A stretch of DNA of 50,496 nt from a virus (IMGVR_UViG_3300022752_006269:1-50496), one strand, 5' to 3'. Shown: positions 11,343 to 48,530, counted from the stretch's first letter. Translations and numbers: made by a program. Notes: generated from the sequence alone by a model not told the origin.

Positions 11343-12149
11343 TCATGTTTTAACAACAGGTACATCGTCAGTTTTATCCGTATCTTTAGGGTCTTCAGTT
11401 ACACCTTGAAATGCAAAGCAATCAAGTTTGCTATAGCATTCATAGTGTTCTTTTCTGGTATAACAATAACCACCTTGCCCGAAACTAGACCCCCAGCTAT
11501 TTTGAAGTTTAATCAACCAGCCATATTTATTGTGTCTCTTTAATCCGCATGCAAGCATTGAGTGTCCACCGCCACCACCATTTGGTAGAGGAGCAATGCC
11601 TTCTGAATCTACACGGGTGAAATTACTACCAACTAAGATGCCAATGTTAACAACAAATCCCAAATTTAGAGCTTGGCAAACTTCATCAAATGTTGTACAA
11701 CGATAAGCCTTATCAAGCTTGAATCGTGCTGCATTGTCACAAGCAGATTTGGTCAAACTGCTTTTATAGTAAACACGATCATATGGAAAGGCATTGGTTT
11801 CACAAATTCCATATTGTTGTAAAGCTTTCATACTTTCTGAAATGTATGCTCCGTCATCTTGTCCACCATTTATCAAAGCATAATGGAAGAATGGATTGAA
11901 GTCTTTTTGTGTATTCTGACGCTGCTTATAAATAATTTCCATGCCAGCAGTTGTAGCATGAGCCACACAACTACTGGTTGATTTTTGATTAAGAATTCTA
12001 TGTCCCTGCCAAGACAAATCTATTTCTTTTAAAGTGGAAGCATCAAAACTTTTGAAATGATCACCAAAAATTGGTGTGCCATCGTCTGGGCTTGGTGTGT
12101 GCGAAAGAACTCTGTAGTAACCGTCAAAAAATATAGATGGGAAACTCAT
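11343..12149 (-). CDS. Papain-family (C1) cysteine protease
   Basis: The 268-aa protein has the full papain catalytic set: Q55 (oxyanion hole) six residues before C61 in QKSTSSCVAHATT, H196 in GGGGHSMLACG, and N217 in LQNSWGSSFGQGGY. Length fits a mature C1A domain without a prodomain, and it has no signal peptide. An SD (gggag) precedes ATG 12149. C1A peptidases are uncommon in phages. Its neighbours are two Sec-signal proteins and a helical membrane-type protein, which suggests a role at the cell envelope, in lysis or against a host protein. That role is inference. Confidence 0.88.
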   Translation of the reverse strand: MSFPSIFFDGYYRVLSHTPSPDDGTPIFGDHFKSFDASTLKEIDLSWQGHRILNQKSTSSCVAHATTAGMEIIYKQRQNTQKDFNPFFHYALINGGQDDGAYISESMKALQQYGICETNAFPYDRVYYKSSLTKSACDNAARFKLDKAYRCTTFDEVCQALNLGFVVNIGILVGSNFTRVDSEGIAPLPNGGGGGHSMLACGLKRHNKYGWLIKLQNSWGSSFGQGGYCYTRKEHYECYSKLDCFAFQGVTEDPKDTDKTDDVPVVKT

Positions 12150-18424: not shown

Positions 18425-19011
18425 TGATATTGTTTCCAAATCCTAATTATAACAAATTTAATTTAGGCATTATTGTCCCACCTCACAAACCTTATGATGT
18501 TCTTTCCTTTTTGTGTTGGTTTTCATTTTTTAAATTCTTGCCTAAAGTGAATCCTTTAATTGTAGTTGCTGGTAATACTCCTGTAGATTTTGCTATTTGG
18601 GCAAGAAAATTAAACTTTCCTGTTTTTTATGCTCACAATTGTTTTCATCCTAATCAACTAATTGATCTTGATATTTGGGAAGATTCTTATGCGATTGTTA
18701 TTTCAAATGTTTTCTGCATGAGAAAATTCCAAATAAATAAAAATTTTGATAGCGATTTCATCATTATGAGATCAAAAAATACTAATAATTCAGAATTTTT
18801 GGTTGAAGACATACAAAAAAATAAATATTGTCATGTTAGCTTCTGGGATATCAAAAATAATTTTGAAGAAGTTAGAGGCAGACTAATAAATAATATCGGC
18901 ATATTCTCTAAAGATAAAAGTTTAAATCAAATTAAACTTGAGTCTATATGGGATGATGCTAAAAATATAAGAACTCTTTTAAATCAGGAGGAACGCCATG
19001 AAGAGATTTGA
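18424..19011 (+). CDS. Hypothetical protein, 195 aa
   Basis: The start ATG overlaps the previous stop. The protein has alternating hydrophobic strands and helices (NLGIIVPPHKPYDVLSF, NPLIVVAGNTPVDFAIW, YAIVISNVF), which looks like an alpha/beta Rossmann-type half-domain, perhaps glycosyltransferase-like. No catalytic motif is clear. The 3' end overlaps the next gene by 14 bases, with the next SD (aggagg) inside it. Confidence 0.55.
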   Translation: MILFPNPNYNKFNLGIIVPPHKPYDVLSFLCWFSFFKFLPKVNPLIVVAGNTPVDFAIWARKLNFPVFYAHNCFHPNQLIDLDIWEDSYAIVISNVFCMRKFQINKNFDSDFIIMRSKNTNNSEFLVEDIQKNKYCHVSFWDIKNNFEEVRGRLINNIGIFSKDKSLNQIKLESIWDDAKNIRTLLNQEERHEEI

Positions 19012-19270
19012 CTTTGAAACTTATGGCGATGATGAGTTCGATGATGAAGATGATAAAGAAGATCAAGAGAACAATTTTATTGATTCTCAAATGATAGCCA
19101 TGCAAATGGAACAAAATGTTCTCATAGAACAAGAGATACAAGCCAAACTTGTTGAAGAAGCATATAAAATTTGTAAAGGATCATGGATGTGGTCTTTTAT
19201 GTCGATTCCAGCAAGAATGAAAAAAGTTAAAATTGTTTATGATGAGATAAAAAAAATTATTGCTGAATGA
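18998..19270 (+). CDS. Acidic helical protein, 90 aa
   Basis: ATG 18998 has a strong SD (aggagg). Residues ~8-28 are almost all Asp/Glu (DDEFDDEDDKEDQE), followed by Met/Gln-rich helices and a C-terminal helix (MKKVKIVYDEIKKII). The acidic N-terminus could mimic nucleic acid or bind a basic partner. I do not recognise it. It is followed by a 70-base gap with a palindrome. Confidence 0.6.
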   Translation: MKRFDFETYGDDEFDDEDDKEDQENNFIDSQMIAMQMEQNVLIEQEIQAKLVEEAYKICKGSWMWSFMSIPARMKKVKIVYDEIKKIIAE

Positions 19271-19299: not shown

Positions 19300-19319
19300 T
19301 ATGACATACAGATGTCATA
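19300..19319. promoter_or_regulatory. Palindrome before the FmdB-like gene
   Basis: A perfect 8-bp inverted repeat (tatgacat / atgtcata) with a 4-base centre lies 20 bases before the TTG start at 19339. It could be an operator or a small RNA hairpin that controls the zinc-ribbon gene and the prkA module behind it. Confidence 0.4.
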
Positions 19320-19338
19320 TTATCTAAGGGTCCGAATC

Positions 19339-19665
19339 TTGCCTACATACAATTTTGAATGCAAAAATTGCAACAAAATTTACGAAACATTAGCGTCTTT
19401 CGATCCAAAAGGAAAGTACGCTAGTGTTTCATGTCCTCATTGCAATTCCAAAAAGAAAAAAAAATTATTGAATGATGCTAATATTAAATTTGCTCAACCA
19501 AAAGATACGAGCAAATTTGATAATTTTAATTATAGGGCTGGTTATAATTTGGAACAAGCACAAAACCTTCGCAGAGATGCTCAAGCAGCGTCACACATGG
19601 GAACAGACCCTTATATGCCGATAGATGATATCACCAGTGGTAGGAACTTTGGAGAGGTCAAATAA
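19339..19665 (+). CDS. FmdB-type zinc-ribbon protein, 108 aa
   Basis: The family begins MPTYxxxCxxC, and that sequence (MPTYNFECKNC) starts exactly at TTG 19339, which has aaggg about 8 bases upstream. This supports a TTG start over ATG 19312. Two CxxC pairs (CKNC and CPHC) form a zinc ribbon in residues 1-45. The C-terminal part is polar, with an arginine-rich helix. FmdB proteins are small regulatory or nucleic-acid-binding proteins of poorly known role. It stops one base before the start of prkA, so it probably belongs to the same operon. Confidence 0.75.
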   Translation: MPTYNFECKNCNKIYETLASFDPKGKYASVSCPHCNSKKKKKLLNDANIKFAQPKDTSKFDNFNYRAGYNLEQAQNLRRDAQAASHMGTDPYMPIDDITSGRNFGEVK

Positions 19666-19666
19666 C

Positions 19667-21742
19667 ATGGTTACCCTAAGCCAATTTCTCGACAAAAACA
19701 AGCTTGATAACTTCAACAAACTTAACGAAGTGATTGGATTTGAAGAATATCTCAACAGGTGTTATTCAAATCCAAAGCTTGTTAGAAATTCACATCAAAG
19801 AATTTATGACATGATCGTGTCGCAAGGCACTTCAGAAATTGAAAAATATCGAAAGAAAGTTACTGTTTATAACTTCTTTGAAAAGCATGAACAAATTAAA
19901 GTTTTCGGCATTGAAGAACAACTTGAATCCCTAGTCGCCCATTACAAAGGCGCTGCTGGTAGCTATGGTCCCGAAAAGAGAATTCTTCTTCTATGCGGAC
20001 CTGTCGGATCTGCCAAGTCAACAATATGCAGACTAATCAAGCGCAGCATGGAAGATTATTCAGAAACTGATGCTGGTGCTTGGTACACCTATCGTTGGGT
20101 TAATTTACCTACTGGTAGCGATGGCATCTACACATCAGATGTTTGCGAATGCCCAATGAATGAAGAACCACTCAAGCTTTTGCCATTCGATGTTCGCAAA
20201 AAGATTCTTGATGAACTTAATTCCATCCACAAGGATCAGGCAGATGCTTCTCAAAGGACAACTCTTTATGCACTCGATGTTCGTGGAGAAATCAATCCTA
20301 AGTGCAAGTTCTTCTATGACAAGCTTTTAGAAAAGTATAACGGTGATTGGACACAAGTTATTTCCAATCACATCGAAGTTATTCGCAGAACATATAACGA
20401 AGCAAAGCGTGTTGGCATCGCTTCATTCCAACCAAAAGATGAAAAGAATCAAGATAGCACCGAACTAACTGGCGACATTAATTTTGCTTTGTTACCAACA
20501 TTCGGTAGCGACAGTGATCCTCGTTGCTTTAACTTTGATGGTGAGTTTGAAGTCGCTAATAGAGGCATCATCGAATTCATTGAAATGCTAAAGCTTGAAG
20601 TTGCATTCCTTTATGATCTACTGGGTGCTTCACAAGAACAGAGCATCAAGCCTAAGAAGTACTCTCAAATTAGCATTGATGAGTCTATTATCGGGCACAC
20701 CAACATGCCTGAATACGAAAAGCTAAAGAACAACCAGTTCATGGAAGCTCTTAAGGATCGTACAGTTCGAATTGAGATTCCTTATCTCCTTGAATGGGGT
20801 AAGGAATTAAAGGTTCTTGAACAAGATTATAACTCAAACAAGATTAAGCAGCATATTGCTCCTCACACTTTGGAAATTGCTGCATTGTTTGCGGTGTTAA
20901 CAAGACTTGAAGACGATAGGGACAACAAAATTACCATTACTGAAAAGGCTGATCTTTATGATGGCAAGATGCTACCGGGATGGACTGTTGATCGAGTCAA
21001 GGAACTTAGAGACAAAAATCCAAATGAAGGTATGATTGGATTGTCTGCTCGTTATGTTCAAGATAAGATTTCAGCCACTTTGTCTAGCAGACATGATTAC
21101 ATCAATCCATTCATGGTTTTGAATGCACTTAAGAGTGGACTAGATAACCACTCTTTGATTACAAACAAGGATCTTGTTCGTAAGTATCAAAATTGCATCA
21201 CATTGGCTACAAAGAAGCTCGATGATATTCTCAAGAATGAGGTGCAAAAAGCTTTGGTTGGTGATGAAGAAGCAATTGTCAGATTGTGCGCTAATTACAT
21301 TGACAACTTGATGGCTTATATCAATAAAGCCAAGATTCTTAATAAGATTACTGGTAGAGAAGAAACGGCTGATGAAAAGTTAATGCGATCAATCGAATCA
21401 AAAATTGATGTGCCAGAATCAACTTGCGATGACTTCCGCAGAATGATTGCTGCATTCATCGGTGATCTTGCAGTTAAGGGCAAGACATTCAGGTGGGATA
21501 GTAATCCTCTTCTTAAGAAGGCATTAGAAGCCAAGTTGTTTGAAGATACTAAGGATCACATTAAGCTTAGTGCTTTCTCAAGCGGTGCTAGCACGGTTGA
21601 CCCTGATGTGCAGAAGAAAATTGATGCTGTAAAGCAGCGTTTAGTAGATAAATATGGTTATAACGATCAGTCTGCTACTGATGTCTTGGATTATGTGAGT
21701 AGCATTTTCGCTAGAGGCGATTTGGCAGACGATGCTGATTAA
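19667..21742 (+). CDS. prkA: PrkA-type AAA+ serine protein kinase (YeaG family)
   Basis: The 691-aa product has the PrkA layout: an N-terminal region (FEEYLNRCYSNPKLVRNSHQ), Walker A GPVGSAKST (111-119), and the conserved RVNLP-type and LPFDVR segments. The C-terminal kinase-like domain includes NPFMVLNALK. PrkA/YeaG is a kinase active in stationary phase and nitrogen starvation, and is normally encoded with YeaH (DUF444) and SpoVR/YcgB, exactly the two genes that follow. It is slightly longer than E. coli YeaG (about 644 aa). By eye the codons here are richer in AAG and CTT than in neighbouring genes, which could mean high expression or later acquisition. Confidence 0.93.
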   Translation: MVTLSQFLDKNKLDNFNKLNEVIGFEEYLNRCYSNPKLVRNSHQRIYDMIVSQGTSEIEKYRKKVTVYNFFEKHEQIKVFGIEEQLESLVAHYKGAAGSYGPEKRILLLCGPVGSAKSTICRLIKRSMEDYSETDAGAWYTYRWVNLPTGSDGIYTSDVCECPMNEEPLKLLPFDVRKKILDELNSIHKDQADASQRTTLYALDVRGEINPKCKFFYDKLLEKYNGDWTQVISNHIEVIRRTYNEAKRVGIASFQPKDEKNQDSTELTGDINFALLPTFGSDSDPRCFNFDGEFEVANRGIIEFIEMLKLEVAFLYDLLGASQEQSIKPKKYSQISIDESIIGHTNMPEYEKLKNNQFMEALKDRTVRIEIPYLLEWGKELKVLEQDYNSNKIKQHIAPHTLEIAALFAVLTRLEDDRDNKITITEKADLYDGKMLPGWTVDRVKELRDKNPNEGMIGLSARYVQDKISATLSSRHDYINPFMVLNALKSGLDNHSLITNKDLVRKYQNCITLATKKLDDILKNEVQKALVGDEEAIVRLCANYIDNLMAYINKAKILNKITGREETADEKLMRSIESKIDVPESTCDDFRRMIAAFIGDLAVKGKTFRWDSNPLLKKALEAKLFEDTKDHIKLSAFSSGASTVDPDVQKKIDAVKQRLVDKYGYNDQSATDVLDYVSSIFARGDLADDAD

Positions 21743-21755
21743 TGAGGGTTAAAAC

Positions 21756-22949
21756 ATGCCCCGCAGAATTGATTCAGACCACAAAGATTTTAGGGATGTA
21801 GTAAGTGGTCGAATTAGAAAAAACTTAAAGAAATTTATCAAAAGTGGCGAAATATTTCGTCACCGTGGTAAAAATGGCAAAGTTTCAATAAAGATCCCTG
21901 CAATCGATATTCCTCACTTTCTCCACGGTAAAAACCCTAATGGTGTCGGTCGTGGAGAAGGTGAGGAAGGTGATACCGTTGGTAAAGACAAAGACAAGGG
22001 CAAGAGCCAAGATAATGGCGCTGGTCAGGATGAAAGCGAAGGCGTAATCGTTCAGATTGACATGGAAGATATCCTTCATTTTATGAAGGATGAATTGATG
22101 CTTCCAGACCTCAAGCCAAAAGAACAAGCCAATCTTGAAGATGTTAAAATAAAATATAACAATATTTCCTTGGTTGGACCTGAATCACTCAGACATACAA
22201 GACGCACAATGTTGACTGCGATGAAGCGTCTTTGTGGTACTGGAGAAATTAATAATTTATATGAAATTCCCGGTATCAAAGACAAAGTTAAAATGATCAA
22301 TCCGATTAATTCGGACAAGAGATATCGTCAATACAAAGAAATTACTTTCCCATCAAGCAATGCAGTCGTGATTTTCGCCAGAGATGCTAGTGGATCAATG
22401 GATGATCGCAAAGTTGGCGTTGTTTCTGACATGGCATACTGGATTGATATTTACATCAGAAATTTCTACGAAAGAGTTGAAAGACTTTATGTGTGGCATG
22501 ATGTTCAGGCACATGAAGTAGATGCAAAAGATTTTTATCGTATTAGAAATGGTGGAGGAACCACTTGCTCAACAGCTTTAGAGCTAGTTGCAAAACAATT
22601 TGATAATAGATTCCCACCAAAAAATTGGAATATTTATTTCTTCTATTTTACCGATGGTGAAAATTATGATAATGACAATGAAGTTTTTACAAGTTTGTTA
22701 AAGAAAGAATTTCCTGCCAATAAAGTCAACCTTGTTTCCGTTACTCAAATTGGTGCATATTCTTACAGAAATAGTGTTGCAGAAGCAGTTGAAAAAGAAA
22801 TTGTTGAAGGTGTTATGGATGACAATGTGATGGTTACCGAGATTCCTTTTGATGTGATGAACAACGAAGAAAAAAGAAATGAAGCCATTTTGAAAGCTAT
22901 TAAGGATATCTTGGGAACTCCTTTTAAAAGTGGCAATGGAGTTTTTTAA
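21756..22949 (+). CDS. yeaH: YeaH-type DUF444 protein with von Willebrand A domain
   Basis: The 397-aa protein starts with the DUF444 signature (RRIDSDHKDF, then GRIRKNLKKFI). A Gly/Asp/Lys linker spans ~60-95. The C-terminal half is a VWA domain with an intact MIDAS: DASGS (210-214), T269/T270 in GGGTTCSTA, and D300 in FTDGEN. YeaH is the partner of the kinase YeaG in bacteria. It starts 13 bases after prkA, with a gagggt SD, and its stop overlaps the spoVR start by one base, so the three genes form one operon. Confidence 0.9.
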   Translation: MPRRIDSDHKDFRDVVSGRIRKNLKKFIKSGEIFRHRGKNGKVSIKIPAIDIPHFLHGKNPNGVGRGEGEEGDTVGKDKDKGKSQDNGAGQDESEGVIVQIDMEDILHFMKDELMLPDLKPKEQANLEDVKIKYNNISLVGPESLRHTRRTMLTAMKRLCGTGEINNLYEIPGIKDKVKMINPINSDKRYRQYKEITFPSSNAVVIFARDASGSMDDRKVGVVSDMAYWIDIYIRNFYERVERLYVWHDVQAHEVDAKDFYRIRNGGGTTCSTALELVAKQFDNRFPPKNWNIYFFYFTDGENYDNDNEVFTSLLKKEFPANKVNLVSVTQIGAYSYRNSVAEAVEKEIVEGVMDDNVMVTEIPFDVMNNEEKRNEAILKAIKDILGTPFKSGNGVF

Positions 22950-24544
22950 TGTCGGACAAATTTTTATTTGGATCTCCAGTTCTATTTGGGTCAGCCACTA
23001 CCCCCGGTGTGCCCATCCCCGAAGAACTCAACAAACATATTCCCACTATCTTTCAAGCTTGTAGAGATTTTGGTTTAGACTTTTACCCAACTATTGTTCA
23101 AATGCTATCTCACGATGAAATGTCTGAGATTGCAAGTTATGGCGGATTTGCAGTAAGATATCCTCACTGGAAATTTGGTGCAGAATATGAAGAAATGCAA
23201 CGAGGTTATCTTCATGGTAACCACAGGATATACGAACTTGTAATCAACAGTTCTCCTTGCTACCTTTATTGTCTTAATTCTAACACACTGCTTGACAATA
23301 TTACTGTAATTGCTCACGCTTTAGGGCATTGCCATTTCTTTAAAAACAATATTCATTTCTCCAGAACAAATACAAACGCACACAACGAACTTGCTAATAA
23401 CGGTTCAAATGTCAGAAAGTACATGTCTCGTTATGGAAGGGAAACAGTAACTGAATTCATGGATCATTTGTTCAGAATTGAGACATTAATTGATCCTGTT
23501 AATATTTGGCGTGAAAGAAAAGCTAAAGAAGTTGTAATCAGGGATAAAAAAGATTATGTTTTCCCAAAGAGGATTCAAATAAAACAAGATTACATGGAAA
23601 GCTGGATCAATACTCCGCAATTTATAGAGGCACAAAACAAGAAAATTGAAGAACAAGAGATCATGAAAGATCTTAATGCATTCGGCGCACCAGAACCAGA
23701 TATATTTGGTTACATTAAAGATAATGCTCCGTTTAAACCTTGGCAGCGTGATATCGCTGAAATGCTTTACAATGAATCAATTTATTTCAGTCCACAAGGT
23801 AAGACTAAAGTAACAAACGAAGGATTTGCCAGTTATTGCGATTATCATATTATCGCCAAACAAGGATATGCATCATTAGGACAAGAAACAGAAGATTCAG
23901 GTATTGTTGAATATTCAATTCATAAAGCTGGTGTTCTTGGTGGCAAGTATAGCATGAATCCATACAAATTAGGATTCATGTTGCTTATGGATATTGAAGA
24001 AAGATGGGATAAAGGCAAGTTTGGTTCTGATTATGCCAATTGTACCGATCCTTTAGAAAAAGAAAAATGGGATCTCAAACTCGGACTTGGTAAACAAAAA
24101 GTATTTGAAGTTTGCAAAAATTATGATGATTATCAATTCATCAATGAATTCTTTACTAAAGACTTTTGTGAAAAGAATGAATTCTTTGAATATAAGCGTT
24201 ATCCAACTGGTGAGATTAAGATTGAAAGCAGAGATCACAAGAAGATTAAAAGAGAATTGTTGAAAAAACATATTAATCGTGGATTACCAAACATTAAACT
24301 TGTTGAACCACGGTTCAAGGGTAATATGTTTTTTATGGAACACAAATGGGAAGGTATTGAACTTTACAAGCCTTATGCTTATGAAGTTATGAAGTCTATT
24401 TGCTATCTTGTCAGACAGCCGGTTGTGTTGCAAACAAAGAATCATAATGGAGATGAAGCTTTTTATTATTGTCAAGACATGAATGGTGATTATAGTGCTG
24501 CTGATCCCAAGACAATTACAAGGGAAAATTTGAATAAACTATGA
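22949..24544 (+). CDS. spoVR: SpoVR/YcgB family protein
   Basis: The 531-aa protein matches the SpoVR family in length and motifs, including FYPTIVQMLSHDEMSEIASYGG region features (37-66), the PHWKFG stretch and HALGHCHFFKNN (123-134), whose His residues are conserved in the family. SpoVR is needed for spore cortex in Bacillus; YcgB is a starvation gene in E. coli. The molecular role is unknown. It overlaps the DUF444 gene by 1 base and the next gene by 4, completing a phage-borne prkA-yeaH-spoVR operon. Confidence 0.92.
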   Translation: MSDKFLFGSPVLFGSATTPGVPIPEELNKHIPTIFQACRDFGLDFYPTIVQMLSHDEMSEIASYGGFAVRYPHWKFGAEYEEMQRGYLHGNHRIYELVINSSPCYLYCLNSNTLLDNITVIAHALGHCHFFKNNIHFSRTNTNAHNELANNGSNVRKYMSRYGRETVTEFMDHLFRIETLIDPVNIWRERKAKEVVIRDKKDYVFPKRIQIKQDYMESWINTPQFIEAQNKKIEEQEIMKDLNAFGAPEPDIFGYIKDNAPFKPWQRDIAEMLYNESIYFSPQGKTKVTNEGFASYCDYHIIAKQGYASLGQETEDSGIVEYSIHKAGVLGGKYSMNPYKLGFMLLMDIEERWDKGKFGSDYANCTDPLEKEKWDLKLGLGKQKVFEVCKNYDDYQFINEFFTKDFCEKNEFFEYKRYPTGEIKIESRDHKKIKRELLKKHINRGLPNIKLVEPRFKGNMFFMEHKWEGIELYKPYAYEVMKSICYLVRQPVVLQTKNHNGDEAFYYCQDMNGDYSAADPKTITRENLNKL

Positions 24545-25287
24545 ACCACCCAACTTTCAGGTTTATGTTTCAGAATTTTCCAAATTCTACATTTTTGAAA
24601 TGGTGCATGCATTTTAATGAAAACTTAAAAGAAAGAAATGTAAAAAATTTTTTATTTGGCGACAATTCATTATCAAACAATTTTTTCATCAAATCTATTT
24701 TGTCAAATAAAGTTTTTATCAATATCTTCATGTCTAACAATATGGTAGAAGAATTTCCTTTAATTGAAGACAACATTAAAAAATATTGTGAAAATTTACT
24801 TATAAAAGGCGCATTTTCTGAATGCAAAATAGATTTGTTTAGTGAAAAATATAAAGATTTGGTTTTAAGAGATTTCAATTTAATCAACATAAAAGACATG
24901 TTTGATGAATACTGGCAATTTTATTTCAAAAATAAACCAAATTTATTTTATAAAATTCCTGAATATTACAACAGCTTACCATTCAGTTATATTTGGTCAT
25001 TATTTTTTACCGAAAAAGATGCACAGGCGTTGGTATTAGATGAATTAGTTAAAAAAAATTCCTATTTAATAGGAAAAAATATTAATTTAAACTTCAACAT
25101 AATAAAAAATGTAAAATATAAGATAATATATTTGGATGCAATGGGCAAAAGAATTAATATAAACGATTATCTGAAAATATTAGATCAAAATGGTCTTTTA
25201 TTATTGAGAAATCTTGAAATTGAAGGACCAAATATGGTAGGATGGCGTGATCTACGAGGTCGAATGATGGGGATTATCAAAGTTTAA
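24541..25287 (+). CDS. Hypothetical protein coupled to spoVR, 248 aa
   Basis: ATG 24541 overlaps the spoVR stop (ATGA). The protein is rich in Phe, Asn, Leu and Ile. It has helical stretches and a C-terminal strand-turn segment (QNGLLLLRNLEIEGPNMVGW) that reminds me of the end of a SAM-methyltransferase domain, but no SAM motif is visible. Base composition is more AT-rich than in the three genes before it, so it may be phage-native and not part of the bacterial module. Translational coupling suggests that it works with SpoVR. Confidence 0.6.
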   Translation: MNHPTFRFMFQNFPNSTFLKWCMHFNENLKERNVKNFLFGDNSLSNNFFIKSILSNKVFINIFMSNNMVEEFPLIEDNIKKYCENLLIKGAFSECKIDLFSEKYKDLVLRDFNLINIKDMFDEYWQFYFKNKPNLFYKIPEYYNSLPFSYIWSLFFTEKDAQALVLDELVKKNSYLIGKNINLNFNIIKNVKYKIIYLDAMGKRININDYLKILDQNGLLLLRNLEIEGPNMVGWRDLRGRMMGIIKV

Positions 25288-25762: not shown

Positions 25763-25840
25763 ATGGAACATCAAAACAAGGAAGGAGGGCAGCACAAGCA
25801 GATGAAGATTGTTGGTTTTGAACATCTTCATCTGCACTAG
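25763..25840 (+). CDS. Start segment of DnaE ending in HLHLH then UAG
   Basis: This 25-codon frame starts at ATG 25763 (aaaggag upstream) or at the internal ATG 25802 (aaggagg at 25782-25788). It ends ..GFEHLHLH followed by TAG at 25838. HLHLH is the metal-binding start of the DnaE PHP domain. The expected next residues (TEYSILDG) lie in the -1 frame from 25846. Leaving out the 8 bases 25838-25845 (tagctgac) joins the two parts exactly as in the family. So this is either the first part of dnaE, joined by recoding (8-nt bypass or -1 shift), or a broken 5' end. Confidence 0.5.
   Translation: MEHQNKEGGQHKQMKIVGFEHLHLH
25798..25835 (+). promoter_or_regulatory. Strong hairpin over the dnaE start codon
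   Basis: A perfect 12-bp inverted repeat (gcagatgaagat 25798-25809 / atcttcatctgc 25824-25835) can be extended by gtt/aac inside with one bulge, giving about 15 bp and a 7-base loop. It includes ATG 25802 in its 5' arm and the HLHL codons in its 3' arm, and ends two bases before the TAG. It may hide the start codon or stimulate recoding. Confidence 0.7.
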
Positions 25841-25860
25841 CTGACACAGAATATTCAATT

Positions 25861-27147
25861 TTGGACGGGTTGTCTTCAATTTCTGAACTCTGCCAAAGAT
25901 GGCAGGATTATGGTGATTATATTTGTGTCACCGATCACGGGCTTATGGGTGCAATACCATCATTGATTTCAACTACAGAAAATTTTGAAAAAAAGAAATT
26001 TAATCCAATTTTTGGCTGCGAGCTTTACACTAATCCAATTCATAATGAACCTACAGAAAATGAAGAAGCTAGGGACAAGTTTATCAAGAACTTGTCGCCA
26101 CAAGAATTTGAAGAATTTAAAGTATCTAGTCATATTCTGGCAATTGCAGTCACCAATAAAGGTTATGAAAACCTAACAAAGATTTGCAGTCTTGGTTGGA
26201 GTCAAGGGTTTTATCGTAAGCCTAGAGTTAATCACAACATATTAAAACAATATCGAGAAGGTATTGTTTTTACCAGTTGTTGCTGTGCTTCAGAAGCTGC
26301 TAGGGCTTTGCGTGTTCGTGGTAAAGAAATAGCTGAAGCAACTGTGTTGAAATATAAAGAAATGTTTGGTGAAAACTTTTATCTTGAGATGATGTTATTA
26401 GATTTTGAGTATCAGCATGAATATGATAAATTTTTAGTTGAAATGCACATTAAGCATAACATACCGATGATCATTACTAATGATGTGCATTATGCATTTC
26501 AAGAAGATAGCAAGTATCAAACATTGATGATGTTGGTTAATACAAAGCGCACATTGGCTGAAATTGAAAAATTAAAGGCAGAGAATGCTGATGTATTTGA
26601 ATTGCAAGATAGAAATTTGTGGATGAAGTCTGAAGATGAATTAAATCAAAAGTGGGCAGAGAAATATTCTGATGTCATTCCTTTGGAGATTTATGAACAA
26701 GCGAAGATGAACACAGTTAAGATATGCAGAATGGCATCTGGTGTTAAGTTAGACAGAAGTGTAAAGTTGCCTAGATTGAATGATGACGAAGAGGTATTAA
26801 AGGAATTGGTATTGAAAGGAATGGTATACAGAGGAATATCTAAGTCAAATAGGGTTTATACTAGGCGTATTGCGGAAGAATTGGATCTTATTTTTAGGAA
26901 GCAATTTGCTTCTTACTTCTTAATTGTGAAGAGTTTTACAGATGAAGCTAGAAAAAAATGTCAAGAACTCACTGGCTTGGATGGTATCTATGCTGTCGGT
27001 CCCGGTAGAGGTTCAGGTGCTGGTTCTCTTGTGCTTTATTTGTTGGGTGTTACTGATGTTGACCCCATAAAACATGAATTGCTGTTTTCCAGATTCCTTT
27101 CTGAAAATAGAGGCTCTCAAGCTGTGCTAAAGTTTAGTCAACAGTGA
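25861..27147 (+). CDS. dnaE: DNA polymerase III alpha, N-terminal piece
   Basis: From TTG 25861 the frame encodes DGLSSISEL.., VTDHG and GCELYTNP of the PHP domain, and ends in the pre-palm region with GPGRGS (380-385) and LLGVTDVDPIKHELLFSRFLSENRGS. The family would continue directly into PD[IV]DIDF, but here ten unrelated residues and a stop follow. The HLHxH motif lies upstream in another frame (25802-25837); in this frame codons before TTG read ADTEYSI, so homology extends 5' of the TTG and the TTG is unlikely to be the true start. The catalytic Asp residues are on a separate gene at 29143. Confidence 0.85.
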   Translation: MDGLSSISELCQRWQDYGDYICVTDHGLMGAIPSLISTTENFEKKKFNPIFGCELYTNPIHNEPTENEEARDKFIKNLSPQEFEEFKVSSHILAIAVTNKGYENLTKICSLGWSQGFYRKPRVNHNILKQYREGIVFTSCCCASEAARALRVRGKEIAEATVLKYKEMFGENFYLEMMLLDFEYQHEYDKFLVEMHIKHNIPMIITNDVHYAFQEDSKYQTLMMLVNTKRTLAEIEKLKAENADVFELQDRNLWMKSEDELNQKWAEKYSDVIPLEIYEQAKMNTVKICRMASGVKLDRSVKLPRLNDDEEVLKELVLKGMVYRGISKSNRVYTRRIAEELDLIFRKQFASYFLIVKSFTDEARKKCQELTGLDGIYAVGPGRGSGAGSLVLYLLGVTDVDPIKHELLFSRFLSENRGSQAVLKFSQQ

Positions 27148-29142: not shown

Positions 29143-31614
29143 ATGAGCAACATATCTGTCGAAAATTTCAATCGCATTATAAATAACCAATTCAAAAAAT
29201 TCCCATTCCACGAAGATCCAAGATACCAATTTCGTCTCAGATATGAACTTCTTGAAATAGAAACACAAAATTGTTGTGATTATTTTATTGATTTAGTCAA
29301 ACAAAAAAAGAAATTTCCTAACGAAAACAACCTTCTTGTACCAGTTTTGCTAGGAATTTGCAATGAATATGACATTGAGCAAATGCCAAAAACAAAGACA
29401 AACGAATTCCCTGATGTTGACATAGACTTCCTAGCAGATGTCAGGGATTATCTAAAAAATGAATTCGCACCTAATGAATATAAACCTGAAAACACATGTT
29501 CTATCGGAACATATGGTAGATATGCATTAAAGAGTGCCATGATTGATATGGCACGAATATTTGGTTATGATCGCCAAGAAGTTCTTAATATCACAACCAA
29601 TCTAAGAATGAAGGATGAAGATGGAGATGAATTAACATACGAAGAGGCTGTTGAGTTATATCCAGAACTGAAAGCATATTTAGAGAAGTATCCAGAATTA
29701 GCATTAGCTGTACAAAAGCTTATTCATCGTGTCCGCAATACTGGCAAACATGCTGGCGGTGTTATTGTAGCTAAGGATCAAATAAATAAATTTGTGCCAT
29801 TGATGAAAACAACTGGTGGTGATTTTTTAGTTTCACAATTTGTTGAAGGACTTGCCAATCAAGAACTTGGACCTATTGGTCTGGTTAAGTTTGACCTCCT
29901 AGTTGTGTCTGCATTAGAGCAAATGGCTCATGCAGCAAAACTAATAAAGCAAAGGCATGATATTAAGGTAATTTCAGGAACTACGCACGATTGGGATAAT
30001 GTAGATTATTTAAATGATCCAAAAGCAATTTCTTATGCCAATGAAGCAGATTTGATAGGCATATTTCAGTATGATAGCAATGGCATTAGAGAAGTTGTTA
30101 AGGCATCTGGTATTAACAGCTTTGATGACTTAGTTGCTATTGTTAGTCTTTATCGCCCCGGTCCCCTTAATGCAGAGATGGATCAAGTATTTATTAAGCG
30201 TAAAACAGGACAAGAAGAATACACAATCAATCCAGTCCTTGAGCCTATTCTTAAATCTACTTATGGTATCATTGTTTATCAAGAACAAGTTATGCGTTTG
30301 CTCAATGTTGTAGGCAAGATCCCTCTTAAAGATTGCGAAACAATCCGCAAAGCTATTTCAAAGAAAAAGATATCAAGCTTCATCAAGTATAAAGAAAAAT
30401 TTATTGAAAACGGCATAAAAGTCTTACAGGTCACTAGAGAAGAAGTTGCTGAAATTTGGCAAAACCTTGAATACTTCTCTGCTTACGGATTTAACCTAAG
30501 TCATGCCACAGCTTACACTTATATCTCAAGTAGACAGCTTTATTTAAAGACATATTATCCATTGGAGTTTTTTACAGCTTTGTTGATGTTGGAACCCAGT
30601 GAGGAGAAGAGAAGGATATATATTACTGATGCACAGAATCATGGAATTGAGGTGAAGAGTGTTGATTTAAATATAAGCAAGTCTAGTTTTTCAATACATG
30701 ACAATGTGATTTATATTGGTTTTGGTAATATAAAAGGAATAGGTAAAGATACGGCTGACAAGATTGTTGCATTGCAACCTTTCAAAGATGTTGATGATTT
30801 TCTTCGTAGGTTTGGTACAGATTCTAGTGTGTTAAAAGCTTTGATTCCATTAAAAGTATTTGGTGAGGATGCAGTTAAAGCACATAATTATTGGCAAGCA
30901 TTTATGTCAAAGAACAAGAAAGTTGTTGACAAGAATAAAAGAGCGAATAAGTCTTACTTAGAATTAAAGAAAACAGTACTTTCTTACTTGCCAGAAAAGT
31001 ATTGGAATTTGGAATTGTCTGAAGAATTGTTTGGAATTCTTAGGACTATAAATAAAACTTCTGATGTGGAAAAACTTTATAAAAAGTGGTCTAGGATGAA
31101 TAGCAAAGAAGTTGCAACTATTGATATTAGTTATGAAGATTTCGATGATGATGACATGGTGATTGATGATAAGGAGGTTTTACTTGAGTTGAGCGATATT
31201 TGTGTGGCTGAAAGAAAGTATTATGGTTTTCAGTTTACTTGTAGGTTGAAAAATATGAAATCATATAATGATAACTTGACATTTGACAGTGTGATTAAAT
31301 CCCACACTATGGGTGCGACCAAGCATATGGTTCAGATTGAAGTTTTAGATGTGAATAAGAGACTTTCTAAAGCTGGCAAGCCTTATTGTCAAATACTTGG
31401 TATGGACAGTCAATTTAAGGCTGAAAGAATCAATGTGTGGGAAGATGATTATGCTGTTTTTAGACATTTACTTGAGGTTAATAATTGTTTATCTATACAG
31501 GTCAAACCACCATCAAATGGTTTTTCGACTTATAGCTTGAATTCACCTCCAAAGCACAAGAGGTATTTGTTGCCATCAACAAATATGGATTTTAGAATTG
31601 TCTTAATGGACTAG
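29143..31614 (+). CDS. dnaE: DNA polymerase III alpha, C-terminal piece
   Basis: The 823-aa protein carries the palm motif PDVDIDF (90-96, catalytic Asp 91 and 93) and the KFDLL strand near 250 (third Asp). Finger and thumb segments include YRPGPLN and YGIIVYQEQVMRL. A helix-hairpin-helix region has GFGNIKGIGKDTADKI, and a C-terminal OB-type domain includes MVQIEVLDVNKRLSKAG. Residues ~28-80 (RLRYELLEIE..DYFIDL) look like a diverged second copy of the pre-palm already present in the first piece, but without GPGRGS. Replicative DNA synthesis presumably needs both polypeptides to associate. Confidence 0.92.
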   Translation: MSNISVENFNRIINNQFKKFPFHEDPRYQFRLRYELLEIETQNCCDYFIDLVKQKKKFPNENNLLVPVLLGICNEYDIEQMPKTKTNEFPDVDIDFLADVRDYLKNEFAPNEYKPENTCSIGTYGRYALKSAMIDMARIFGYDRQEVLNITTNLRMKDEDGDELTYEEAVELYPELKAYLEKYPELALAVQKLIHRVRNTGKHAGGVIVAKDQINKFVPLMKTTGGDFLVSQFVEGLANQELGPIGLVKFDLLVVSALEQMAHAAKLIKQRHDIKVISGTTHDWDNVDYLNDPKAISYANEADLIGIFQYDSNGIREVVKASGINSFDDLVAIVSLYRPGPLNAEMDQVFIKRKTGQEEYTINPVLEPILKSTYGIIVYQEQVMRLLNVVGKIPLKDCETIRKAISKKKISSFIKYKEKFIENGIKVLQVTREEVAEIWQNLEYFSAYGFNLSHATAYTYISSRQLYLKTYYPLEFFTALLMLEPSEEKRRIYITDAQNHGIEVKSVDLNISKSSFSIHDNVIYIGFGNIKGIGKDTADKIVALQPFKDVDDFLRRFGTDSSVLKALIPLKVFGEDAVKAHNYWQAFMSKNKKVVDKNKRANKSYLELKKTVLSYLPEKYWNLELSEELFGILRTINKTSDVEKLYKKWSRMNSKEVATIDISYEDFDDDDMVIDDKEVLLELSDICVAERKYYGFQFTCRLKNMKSYNDNLTFDSVIKSHTMGATKHMVQIEVLDVNKRLSKAGKPYCQILGMDSQFKAERINVWEDDYAVFRHLLEVNNCLSIQVKPPSNGFSTYSLNSPPKHKRYLLPSTNMDFRIVLMD

Positions 31615-37286: not shown

Positions 37287-38049
37287 TTGCAGATATTTAT
37301 CTAATTCTTTAACTTCAACTAGTTGTGGTTGCAGTACTGCTATCGCTGAAATGCCAATTTATGTTGTTAAACAACACAGTACTTATCCTCCGTTTAAGGT
37401 TGATGTTACTGATTGTAATGGGGAACCATATGATTTGAAAGATTTAGTTGTTGAAGCAGCTATGTGGACAAATGCAAAGTTGAAATCAGCCATAACGATT
37501 GCCGATAATTTGATTAAATTTGCTGACAATATTGGCTATGATAGCGTTGGAACGAATGCTATTCTACATGTTTCTAATGGAAGAGATTTTGAGAGGATGA
37601 CAATTGTTGGATTTGATGATGTCAATAAAGTGATTGAAGTAAATAGAGGAGCTTGTGACACCACAATTAGACCTTGGGCAAAAGGCTCTTCTGTGAAAAT
37701 ATTAAGGTTTTTCAATTCTCCAGCATCATCTGAATTGACTTATTATGATAGAGAAAATATTGACGGAACTACTACTTTAAATGTTTTACAAAGAAGTACA
37801 CTAATTTATGAATGGAAACCTGAAGATGTTTGCTTCATTGGGAAATATTACTTTGAGTTCAAAGTTTTGAAGATGAATCTTTTGACTAATTTAGATTCTA
37901 TAGACTTTTCAACAATTAGTATCACTCCAGTAAGTGAGATCAATTACCATTGTGAACTGGGTCTTGGTGTCGAATGGGCAAGAAGATTCCCCAATGACAA
38001 AGAGGGTTTTGTGATTGAAGTTACTAGTAGTCCAACAGCGGAGTGTTAA
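37279..38049 (+). CDS. Putative tail/baseplate structural protein, 256 aa
   Basis: I chose ATG 37279, which is coupled to the upstream stop. The protein is beta-rich. It has the layout of the baseplate-type beta-sandwich: DVTDCNGEPYDLKDLVVEAAMW, then a repeated strand pattern, and YEWKPEDVCFIGKYYFEFKV, as in BppU/fibre N-terminal domains (quoted in parts). It also has an inserted strand-rich module with VIEVNRGACDTTIRPW. A virion role in tail or fibre assembly is inferred from this pattern. Confidence 0.55.
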   Translation: MVNCRYLSNSLTSTSCGCSTAIAEMPIYVVKQHSTYPPFKVDVTDCNGEPYDLKDLVVEAAMWTNAKLKSAITIADNLIKFADNIGYDSVGTNAILHVSNGRDFERMTIVGFDDVNKVIEVNRGACDTTIRPWAKGSSVKILRFFNSPASSELTYYDRENIDGTTTLNVLQRSTLIYEWKPEDVCFIGKYYFEFKVLKMNLLTNLDSIDFSTISITPVSEINYHCELGLGVEWARRFPNDKEGFVIEVTSSPTAEC

Positions 38050-38051
38050 TT

Positions 38052-38585
38052 TTGCTAGATAATAATCGTTTGCGTGTCAATTTTCAAATTAGGATTCCAC
38101 AAGTAAGAGTGATTCAAAATGGAGAACAGCTAGGCATTATGCCTACCGATAAAGCAAGGAATATTGCTTATGATCAAGGTTTAGATTTAGTCGAAATGGT
38201 TCCAAACGCTCATCCTCCTGTGTGTCATATTCTTGACTATTCAAAATATAAGTATGAACAAAAAGTCAAGCATAAAGAACATATGAAAAAGCAAAGAGAA
38301 ATGGTTCAAATTGTCAAGGAAATAAGATTATCTCCTTCTATTGGTCAACATGATCTTGATATTAAAATCAAACATATTTTCGAATTTATTGCTAATGATA
38401 AAAAAGTTCAAATTTTTATGAAATTTCGTTCTAGAGAAATGCAACATAAGGATGTTGGCTTTGAAAAAATTAATCAAATTTTAGAAAAGTGTAAAGAACT
38501 TGCTGTGGTGGAATTACAACCTAAATTTGAGGGATCTAAATTAATTTGTCGTTTGGCTCCACAAAAAACTAAAGTTGCTAACTAG
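38052..38585 (+). CDS. infC: Translation initiation factor IF-3
   Basis: The 177-aa product covers both IF3 domains. The N-domain has QIRIPQVRVI, NGEQLGIMPTDKARNIA and LDLVEMVPNAHPPVCHILDYSKYKYE. The C-domain has VKEIRLSPSIGQHDLDIKIKHIFEF and VQIFMKFRSREMQH (quoted in parts). IF3 checks the start codon and keeps 30S free. I choose TTG 38052 because ggag lies 8 bases upstream; GTG 38043 would overlap this SD. Cellular infC uses AUU, a non-AUG start that gives self-limitation; TTG could do the same. It follows the structural gene by 2 bases. Confidence 0.92.
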   Translation: MLDNNRLRVNFQIRIPQVRVIQNGEQLGIMPTDKARNIAYDQGLDLVEMVPNAHPPVCHILDYSKYKYEQKVKHKEHMKKQREMVQIVKEIRLSPSIGQHDLDIKIKHIFEFIANDKKVQIFMKFRSREMQHKDVGFEKINQILEKCKELAVVELQPKFEGSKLICRLAPQKTKVAN

Positions 38586-38634: not shown

Positions 38635-38949
38635 ATGAGCGAAGTCGGTAAGGTTGTAGGCTGCAAGCCTTGTGGCAATCAGGTTTTGATTGAACTTTTG
38701 ACCACTCAAGAAATGGCTAATACCAAACTTATTCTCAATAATAATAGCAAGAGAATGGGAGCAGAATACCAAGCTATAGTTTTAGCTATAGGACCACAAG
38801 TTAATTTTGAGTCTTATGGATTCCAAGTTGGTGATCGTGTTGTTATTTCTGGAAATGCTGTACCAGCACCTGAATACGGTCCAGAATCTGAAAGAGAAAA
38901 AGTTCTTGTTGACCCTACAGCTATTAAAGCTGTACTGGTCTGTAAGTGA
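38635..38949 (+). CDS. GroES/Gp31-like co-chaperonin, 104 aa
   Basis: The protein has the GroES fold pattern: N-terminal strand CKPCGNQVLIELL, a mobile-loop region (about residues 25-40, NTKLILNNNSKRMG), then YQAIVLAIGPQVN, FQVGDRVVISG and a C-terminal VDPTAIKAVLV. It would cap host GroEL. T4 Gp31 and phage Cocos enable folding of large capsid proteins, so capsid assembly is the likely use here. ATG 38635 has agaggatt upstream. It ends inside the 3' end of a convergent tagged gene (26-base overlap). Confidence 0.85.
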   Translation: MSEVGKVVGCKPCGNQVLIELLTTQEMANTKLILNNNSKRMGAEYQAIVLAIGPQVNFESYGFQVGDRVVISGNAVPAPEYGPESEREKVLVDPTAIKAVLVCK

Positions 38950-45807: not shown

Positions 45808-46773
45808 ATGCGTGTTATTTACAAAAAATTTCATTCTACACGCAATTTTGGTGTGGAACTTGAAGTTGGCAATGAGTATCCAAGAAGCTTCATATCAGGA
45901 ATAATAAAAAATTCAACTAATATGAAAGTCAATATATCAAACTATACTCAATCCGTGAATAATTCTCATTGGGTTGTAAAAACAGATGCATCTTGTGGTA
46001 AAAAAATTAAAAGCAATGGTATCAACGAAGGTGGTTATGAAATTGCTTCGTTTGTTGCTTCTGGTGTCGAAGACATAAAAAAAATAGCAAATGTTGCTCA
46101 CGACCTGAAAAAGAATGGTGTTAGGGCAAATAATAATTGTGGCTTTCATATTCATGTCAACACTTCGGATTTTTCTGAAGAGCAAATGGGTAAACTGATT
46201 AGTTATTGGATTTTAATAGAAGATGTTATTTTTAATGCAGTTCCTTTCAGAAGGACAGTTAATCGTTATTGCAAAAAAGTTAAAATAAAAAACAAGTGTT
46301 TTGACGCAGCATTAAGATCAATAAAAGACAGTAATAAAATATGGGAAATGTACAGACCAAAAACAATTAATATTAGGAACCCTTCTGAAAAAAGATTTTC
46401 TCTTAATTTGTTGAATTTTTATGCTGCAACAAAAACTAAATTTAAAAGAAAAACAATTGAATTTAGATTTCCTGAAGGAACTCTTTGCCAAAATACTGTC
46501 AAACATTTTATTTTTTTGCTCTTAAGTTTTGTTGAAAATACTAAACAAATCAATCCCCCCAATTACAAAAATATTTCTGTTGATAAGTTTTTAATAATAT
46601 GTGGTTTAAGTGATAGCAAGTCTTTGTGCATTTTAGATAATGATTTAATAAAAACAAAAATTTGGCTTTTAAAAAGAATAATTAGATTTAGTAGGCTTAT
46701 TGAGTATAAGAATCAAGCAAAAAAGATTCTTACTAAGATTTACAAGGGGTGTGGCAATGCCAAATCATTCTAA
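45808..46773 (+). CDS. Putative amidoligase, 321 aa
   Basis: The protein shows the amidoligase (COG-type glutamine-synthetase-fold) pattern: FGVELEVGN near the N-terminus, HWVVKTDASCG, GGYEIASFVASGVEDIKK, NNCGFHIHVNTSDF and KRKTIEFRFPEGTL. Members join amines to carboxylates, for example in peptide tagging or cell-wall changes, and occur in phages. I cannot name the substrate. Its neighbours are a membrane coiled-coil protein and short unknown genes, so an envelope target is plausible. The next gene starts inside its 3' end. Confidence 0.8.
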   Translation: MRVIYKKFHSTRNFGVELEVGNEYPRSFISGIIKNSTNMKVNISNYTQSVNNSHWVVKTDASCGKKIKSNGINEGGYEIASFVASGVEDIKKIANVAHDLKKNGVRANNNCGFHIHVNTSDFSEEQMGKLISYWILIEDVIFNAVPFRRTVNRYCKKVKIKNKCFDAALRSIKDSNKIWEMYRPKTINIRNPSEKRFSLNLLNFYAATKTKFKRKTIEFRFPEGTLCQNTVKHFIFLLLSFVENTKQINPPNYKNISVDKFLIICGLSDSKSLCILDNDLIKTKIWLLKRIIRFSRLIEYKNQAKKILTKIYKGCGNAKSF

Positions 46774-47707: not shown

Positions 47708-47959
47708 ATGAGCTTTATCAACATCGGTAGTTCCAAGCATCAAGTTGGTCAATCTTCTTGTGATGAGTGTCTCAACGGATATCCACGCAAATGTTGTTGC
47801 GGAGGCATGATTCACGCTGAATTTGGTGGTCAAAATTCTCCATCAAAATATCTTTGTGATAAGTGTGGTGACAGATTTATCAAAAACACTTATGTTCCTA
47901 GAAACAAAAAGCCATTTCACAAAAACAAAACAAAATTAAGAGCTAAAAATGACAACTAA
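47708..47959 (+). CDS. Cys-rich zinc-binding-type protein, 83 aa
   Basis: ATG 47708 has a good SD (aaggag). Cysteines come in CDEC, CCC and CDKC groups (residues 18-54) with a His, suggesting a treble-clef or two zinc ribbons. The C-terminal tail is basic (KKPFHKNKTKLRAKN). Its 3' end overlaps the cobalamin adenosyltransferase gene by 11 bases. Confidence 0.6.
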   Translation: MSFINIGSSKHQVGQSSCDECLNGYPRKCCCGGMIHAEFGGQNSPSKYLCDKCGDRFIKNTYVPRNKKPFHKNKTKLRAKNDN

Positions 47960-48530
47960 ACTTTACACTGGCTACGGAGACAAAGGTTGTACTTTTACTA
48001 AGCGCAACCCCAAAACTCCTAAACATGATAAACTAATTTGCCTGATTGGCGAAATAGATGATTTCAACAGTCATATCGGCTATTTAGTTTATTTGCTTGA
48101 AAAGAAATTTCATCAAGCTGAGTATGCTATTTTTCAAAACAGGATTCAATCTTTGTTGTTTCATATTGGTGCTTTTCTTGGCTACAATTCTCCAATAAAA
48201 AAAGAAGTTTTAGAGAAGGCTGTTTCCACAATTGAATATCATATTGACGATCAGGAGAAAAAGAATCAACCTATAAAAAATTTCATTTTGCCTCATGGCA
48301 CTCAAGCTGCATCATTCGCACATATATGTCGCTCTAAAGCTAGAGGAGTTGAAAGATTAATTTGTGAATATATGTCATATCAAGACAATATATCTGAAAC
48401 TAATGAGTTGATTCAAGTTTTATTCAACAGATTAAGTGATTATTATTTTAGCCTTGCTAGAACAATAAATCGTTTGAATGGCAAAAACGATCTCGTTTGG
48501 AAAGCAGATTCAAGTGAATACGACTTCTAA
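47949..48530 (+). CDS. Cob(I)alamin adenosyltransferase (PduO type)
   Basis: The 193-aa protein has all typical PduO-type motifs: LYTGYGDKGCT (ATP-binding TGxGDxGxT), GEIDDFNSHIG, IQSLLFHIGAFLG, FILPHGTQAASFAHICRSKARGVER and NRLSDYYFSLAR. It transfers adenosyl from ATP to cobalamin, making the cofactor of class II ribonucleotide reductase and some mutases. A phage might use it to support a B12-dependent RNR, but no RNR is in this window. It overlaps the zinc protein gene by 11 bases and possibly the HNH gene. Confidence 0.9.
   Translation: MTTKLYTGYGDKGCTFTKRNPKTPKHDKLICLIGEIDDFNSHIGYLVYLLEKKFHQAEYAIFQNRIQSLLFHIGAFLGYNSPIKKEVLEKAVSTIEYHIDDQEKKNQPIKNFILPHGTQAASFAHICRSKARGVERLICEYMSYQDNISETNELIQVLFNRLSDYYFSLARTINRLNGKNDLVWKADSSEYDF

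Follow-up and report, generated by a model that had tools for sequence, protein, structure and literature searches.

A complete PrkA–DUF444–SpoVR module in a huge-phage genome fragment and its occurrence in other phage groups

The DNA analysed here, hereafter the window, is an entire IMG/VR virus record of 50,496 bases, in which three consecutive genes encode members of the PrkA, DUF444 (YeaH/YhbH) and SpoVR (YcgB) families (Table 1). An earlier note on this DNA had described them as a complete, intact module with 13-base and −1-base spacing, and our analysis bears this out: three intact reading frames are found, with a 13-base gap between PrkA and DUF444 and a 1-base overlap between DUF444 and SpoVR, their Pfam domains are full, and the Walker A motif of PrkA, the MIDAS of DUF444 and a His/His/Glu set in SpoVR are all kept. 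The mechanically called reading frame of PrkA starts earlier, at 19625. Profile scores reach 258.6 bits for AAA_PrkA and 248.3 for the PrkA C-terminal domain (Pfam cut-off 25 each), 208.7 bits for DUF444 and 331.4 bits for SpoVR (cut-off 27 each), and unnamed or vaguely named PHROGs families exist for all three proteins (22605; 19072 and 10856; 35217 and 35658). Of the adjoining genes, the upstream FmdB-like one may lie outside the module, and the downstream one that overlaps SpoVR is probably not a member of it. Membership of a defence system was considered and rejected, the trio being without a PADLOC match.

Table 1. Coordinates of the trio, its neighbours and further features; positions refer to the window unless a locus is named.
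Feature	Position	Strand	Match or remark
PrkA-family AAA+ ATPase, 691 aa	19667..21742	+	Pfam PF08298 1.1e-76, PF06798 1.3e-73; PHROG 22605
DUF444/YeaH/YhbH protein, 397 aa, vWA domain	21756..22949	+	Pfam PF04285 2.1e-61
SpoVR/YcgB protein, 531 aa	22949..24544	+	Pfam PF04293 9.2e-99
FmdB-like zinc-ribbon protein, upstream neighbour	19312..19665	+	TIGR02605 8.4e-9; family in 28 window-clade loci
Short acidic conserved protein, upstream	18998..19270	+	Family in 27 window-clade loci
Fast-evolving downstream gene	24541..25287	+	4-base overlap with SpoVR; present in only 8 window-clade loci
DNA polymerase III alpha, two parts	25855-27147 and 29143-31614		
Papain-like cysteine protease	11343-12149	-	
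Adjoining IF-3 and GroES-like genes	38043-38585, 38635-38949		
Amidoligase	45808-46773		
Cobalamin adenosyltransferase	47949-48530		E 8.7e-35
LR756502, locus L012	516049-525266		
LAU1 (MN688132), locus L009	1-3308		
Intein-like insertion in SpoVR or PrkA	L007 13453-15360		
Intein-like insertion in SpoVR or PrkA	L016 11295-14081		
Intein-like insertion in SpoVR or PrkA	L025 12191-16318		
Intein-like insertion in SpoVR or PrkA	L035 11295-15401		
Intein-like insertion in SpoVR or PrkA	L101 9266-11605		
Intein-like insertion in SpoVR or PrkA	L126 10292-12661		
Intein-like insertion in SpoVR or PrkA	L046 5796-9212		
Intein-like insertion in SpoVR or PrkA	L126 5650-8865		

The window represents part of a huge-phage genome, and the trio is phage-borne, because the window is collinear with the uncultured 595-kb phage record LR756511 and the trio also lies on contigs in IMG/VR that are related to it, the longest among the matches listed having 436 kb. 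About 18 genes are shared with 45 kb of LR756511, where the order of the trio is identical and that of the genes around it largely kept, at identities of 63% for PrkA, 51% for DUF444, 55% for SpoVR and 41–47% for the two halves of DnaE. Collinearity extends to L093, a close relative of the window from another metagenome. The claim that the trio sits inside a real phage thus holds, with the same phage synteny recurring in LR756511, L093 and independent metagenomic contigs; the bacterial contig chimera that the note had envisaged is ruled out by the synteny with LR756511 and L093, and a chance match by the same gene order and phage neighbours in LR756511 and in independent metagenomic phage contigs. 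The other genes of the window include those for a two-part DNA polymerase III alpha, ThyX, dUTPase, PhoH, IF-3, a GroES-like protein and a homing endonuclease, in addition to the cobalamin adenosyltransferase, papain-like protease and amidoligase genes listed in Table 1.

While DNA polymerase III alpha is encoded by one intact gene of 1179 aa in LR756511, it is split in the window, with other genes between the two parts and the break just 5' of the catalytic PDxDxDF motif; no intein motif was seen at the break. The same split is found in L093, L100 and L020, and L016, L017, L030 and L040 share the end point of the N-terminal half. Around the 5' end of the N-terminal half (~25,800–25,860) there is an apparent frameshift, with the HLHLH motif in a different frame from the remainder, which may be a sequencing error or real.

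Between the window and L093, the three proteins of the trio are 91–96% identical, with dN of 0.041, 0.041 and 0.055, as compared to 0.099 and 0.094 for the DnaE halves and 0.29 for the downstream gene at 24541..25287, whose product is 60% identical. The dN/dS of the trio is near 0.03, a ratio computed on nearly saturated synonymous sites, for which dN is the safer comparison. Purifying selection on the trio is therefore stricter than on the DNA polymerase of the same phage.

The search for the trio in phage genomes that the note had proposed recovered it in several phage groups, from Thermus phages to huge phages. A PrkA gene is present in 16 annotated phage records (11 of Thermus phages, 4 of uncultured huge phages and that of Enterobacter phage LAU1), and a scan of IMG/VR found PrkA encoded at no fewer than 233 places, the 80 best of which were retained. 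The phage loci, all found through PrkA, are a sample and include a few contigs fetched twice. All three genes are there in 36 of 39 loci of the clade of the window, in 41 of 42 of a second large IMG/VR group (for which "marine" is a working label, not one based on sampling sites), in 5/5 of the Thermus type and in 4/4 of a further small clade, several of the exceptions being contig ends. The order is PrkA–DUF444–SpoVR in the window clade, and most phages of the marine clade and the Thermus type have DUF444–SpoVR–PrkA. Bacteria show either order, and the trio is contiguous in 70 of the 80 bacterial loci sampled. In the 642-kb phage record LR756502, SpoVR lies ~245 kb from PrkA–DUF444. In LAU1, YeaG–YeaH lie at the extreme end of the record and SpoVR is absent, and these genes are probably flanking host DNA.

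The presence of these genes in phages is not new. Thermus phages phiYS40, TMA, phiLo, MN1 and Lalka share with the window a complete trio, which is annotated piecewise, and differ from it in gene order, in a PrkA identity of ~30% and in forming a clade of their own; in some of them the trio is near head or terminase genes. The Ralstonia jumbo phage RsoM2USA, whose record was not found in the phage collection searched, carries PrkA (ORF30) and SpoVR (ORF28) two ORFs apart; the accessible part of its description gives them as bacterial-like, with best matches in Alcanivorax and Vibrio, and names no DUF444 there (PMC8504454). Viral spoVR was likewise discussed earlier, with a proposed effect on host state (PMC8940887). 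As to whether such a module had been reported, which the earlier note could not say, the individual genes had thus been annotated and a role in host state proposed for one of them, and in the open-access papers searched we found none in which the trio is considered a single phage module or its repeated capture is described.

In quick trees with SH-aLRT support and no bootstrap (82 rows for PrkA, 94 for SpoVR and 81 for DUF444), the window clade forms one group in each of the three, at a support of 100. The tree comparison suggested earlier thus yields a monophyletic phage clade for all three genes, with conserved active residues. In the PrkA and SpoVR trees this clade falls inside a Chloroflexota/Myxococcota/Bdellovibrionota subfamily (support 100), which makes the nearest bacterial relatives of the PrkA and SpoVR of the window Chloroflexota/Myxococcota/Bdellovibrionota-like and not of the proteobacterial YeaG type. 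The bacterial trio, as in Escherichia coli (yeaG–yeaH, ycgB) and Bacillus subtilis (prkA, yhbH, spoVR), has the same three families at full length and with the same key residues; in contrast, the window genes are phage-encoded, form their own monophyletic phage clade and stand beside phage genes. Other phage groups join the same bacterial relatives in both the PrkA and the SpoVR trees: the marine clade is near Clostridia/Bdellovibrionales, and further groups are formed by the Thermus phages and by the small clade (L042–L045). The huge phages LR756502, LR756504 and LR745206 group with the proteobacterial/Bacteroidota YeaG type. Because they form a separate clade, the Thermus phages probably acquired the trio separately, their placement being unsure given their long branches. 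The simplest reading of these sequence relationships is that the whole module was captured by phages at least five times.

Across 93–98 phage copies, the Walker A lysine, the MIDAS and the His/His/Glu set of SpoVR are invariant, which rules out a broken active site. In PrkA, whose PDB relative is 9xip, K117 (Walker A), E306 and R365 are invariant in 98/98 copies, with Glu306 occupying, by inspection, the position of the Walker B glutamate of RavA. The Walker A sequence of the window protein, GPVGSAKS, is a variant in which Ala replaces the last Gly, as it does in many bacterial PrkA proteins. While the earlier assignment as a "PrkA kinase" stands as far as family and Walker A are concerned, the kinase label is questionable: for PrkA of B. 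anthracis, kinase activity was undetectable and protease activity negligible (PMC13001217), and Lys426 of E. coli YeaG, which lies in the supposed kinase domain and is required for complementation (PMC4664914), aligns to Asp466 in the window protein, with a lysine one residue further on. In Thermus phage PrkA there is no lysine at this position. The trio resembles the MoxR AAA+/vWA systems (NorQ–NorD, RavA–ViaA and CbbQ–CbbO) in co-encoding an AAA+ motor and a MIDAS vWA partner; these systems work on a client protein, into which the NorQ–NorD pair inserts metal (PMC13036017). PrkA differs from them as an AAA family of its own with a C-terminal domain. The MoxR Pfam profile gives no PrkA match at E up to 0.001, and RavA gives a weak profile match (E 5e-4).

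The five MIDAS residues of DUF444 (D210-x-S212-x-S214, T269 and D300) are all invariant in 95/95 phage copies, and a PDB search with its AF2 model (pLDDT 81) finds vWA domains at E 8e-8. For SpoVR (AF2 model, pLDDT 86), Foldseek returned no match below E 0.001, with gluzincins at E >0.1, and a search of a viral structure library returned one unnamed relative. In a second look with VIA-align, the matches were almost exclusively gluzincins: LTA4H (Z 9.9–10.0 over ~184 residues, rmsd 4.3), M32 carboxypeptidases and ACE-type chains, these three spanning Z 6–10, together with DPP III and BepA; 3o0y scored Z 12.0. Such scores are middling, given that the model is mainly helical. All phage copies sampled keep E96, H123, H127 and E291, and Y339 is invariant or nearly so. 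Together, the structural matches and the invariant H-x3-H and NEGxA motifs suggest a gluzincin-like metal site in SpoVR, with H123, H127 and E291 as its putative ligands. We do not file SpoVR as a peptidase, because the catalytic Glu that follows the first His in HExxH is replaced in all phage copies, position 124 being Ala, Cys or Val. Sequence profiles yielded no link between SpoVR and peptidases and favour neither view: a weak M1 aminopeptidase match (E 0.26) was lost with a deeper profile, and comparison with peptidase profiles gave one stray Peptidase_M14 match (E 0.11) among 51 members.

Intein-like insertions are common to phages and Chloroflexota/Myxococcota, at two sites in PrkA and, in SpoVR, after NEG(W/F)A and at a second site near VIN (Table 1). 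Inteins prefer functionally critical sites, and the commonest site in SpoVR, directly 3' of NEG(W/F)A, therefore agrees with the importance of this motif.

Our favoured reading, which we regard as somewhat better than evenly supported, is that the trio is a complete bacterial-type module that an ancestor of these huge phages acquired in one piece and that has been strongly selected since, and in which an AAA+/vWA pair would act on or through SpoVR. In such a module, PrkA would be the AAA+ motor and DUF444 its MIDAS vWA adaptor, and the two would either work through SpoVR or remodel or load it, SpoVR having a predicted gluzincin-like fold and a candidate HxxxH...E metal site without the peptidase glutamate. 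The analogy would be with NorQ–NorD or RavA–ViaA acting on metalloproteins. In favour of this reading, E. coli mutants that lack yeaG behave like those that lack yeaH, and the AAA+ lysine is indispensable to YeaG (PMC4664914); the crosslinking of B. subtilis SpoVR to RNA (PMC12456014) would instead suggest a different job. During infection, the phage would be constantly supplied with a function turned on in bacteria during starvation or sporulation, and a plausible gain would be a host kept slow and protected through a long infection or, alternatively, the remodelling of phage proteins.

The first of these gains comes close to the view of the earlier note, that the phage manipulates host stress or persister state; the trio would then be a metabolic brake or dormancy switch which keeps the infected cell quiescent or persister-like. 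We consider this possible, at less than an even chance. E. coli YeaG and YeaH quiesce metabolism and lengthen survival under nitrogen starvation, acting as a "metabolic brake" (PMC4664914, PMC10954441), and normal spores require PrkA (PMC13001217) and, as cited in PMC12456014, SpoVR. Moreover, spoVR is abundant among the viral genes of the oxycline of an oxygen-minimum zone, with a suggested effect on the physiology of the host (PMC8940887), and the trio is carried by phage contigs from many metagenomes. Such a brake would, however, slow phage production too.

Somewhat unlikely, in our view, is that the trio serves the phage directly, as an AAA+/vWA chaperone with a zincin-like partner that assembles or processes virion or replication proteins. 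Precedents are found in group 2.2 jumbo phages, where a MoxR–vWA pair is fused to a metallopeptidase domain and was proposed to act in virion assembly, and in the Acidianus two-tailed virus, whose tail growth requires a MoxR–vWA pair (PMC7824862). The gene neighbourhood is suggestive in Thermus phage Lalka8, where the trio lies between the portal/minor head genes and TerL, in phiYS40, where a few genes separate it from the downstream terminase, and in some marine-clade loci, where a gene close by has a weak match to a head-tail adaptor; a conservation stronger than that of DnaE would also suit a core function. On the other hand, the neighbours in the window clade are DNA polymerase, HldE-like and uncharacterised genes and none is structural, no consistent virion-gene neighbourhood was found across the phage groups sampled, the distant SpoVR of LR756502 fits poorly, and the phage proteins fall among their bacterial orthologues and not into a single phage-specific family. 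A broader version, to which we assign a still lower probability and which we thus hold unlikely, is that phages repeatedly recruited an AAA+/MIDAS-vWA/zincin-like machine, that SpoVR belongs, so far unnoticed, to the metalloproteins of gluzincin fold while lacking the peptidase glutamate, and that the machine would drive a core phage process in huge phages, its role in bacterial starvation being one use of a general machine. That the trio does nothing for the phage, being host DNA captured by chance or an assembly chimera, is extremely improbable, for while the host-like genes of LAU1 indicate that such capture happens elsewhere, here the trio lies inside a phage synteny that LR756511 and many contigs share, its phage copies are monophyletic, and its dN/dS is near 0.03.

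PrkA, YeaH/YhbH and SpoVR are widespread proteins whose biochemical function is unsolved. The observation that at least five phage groups keep all three genes, more strictly than the replicative polymerase, suggests that the three proteins form one functional unit and that phages benefit from it. The Thermus phages would offer a tractable system in which to study the trio, and the predicted metal site of SpoVR is open to point mutation.
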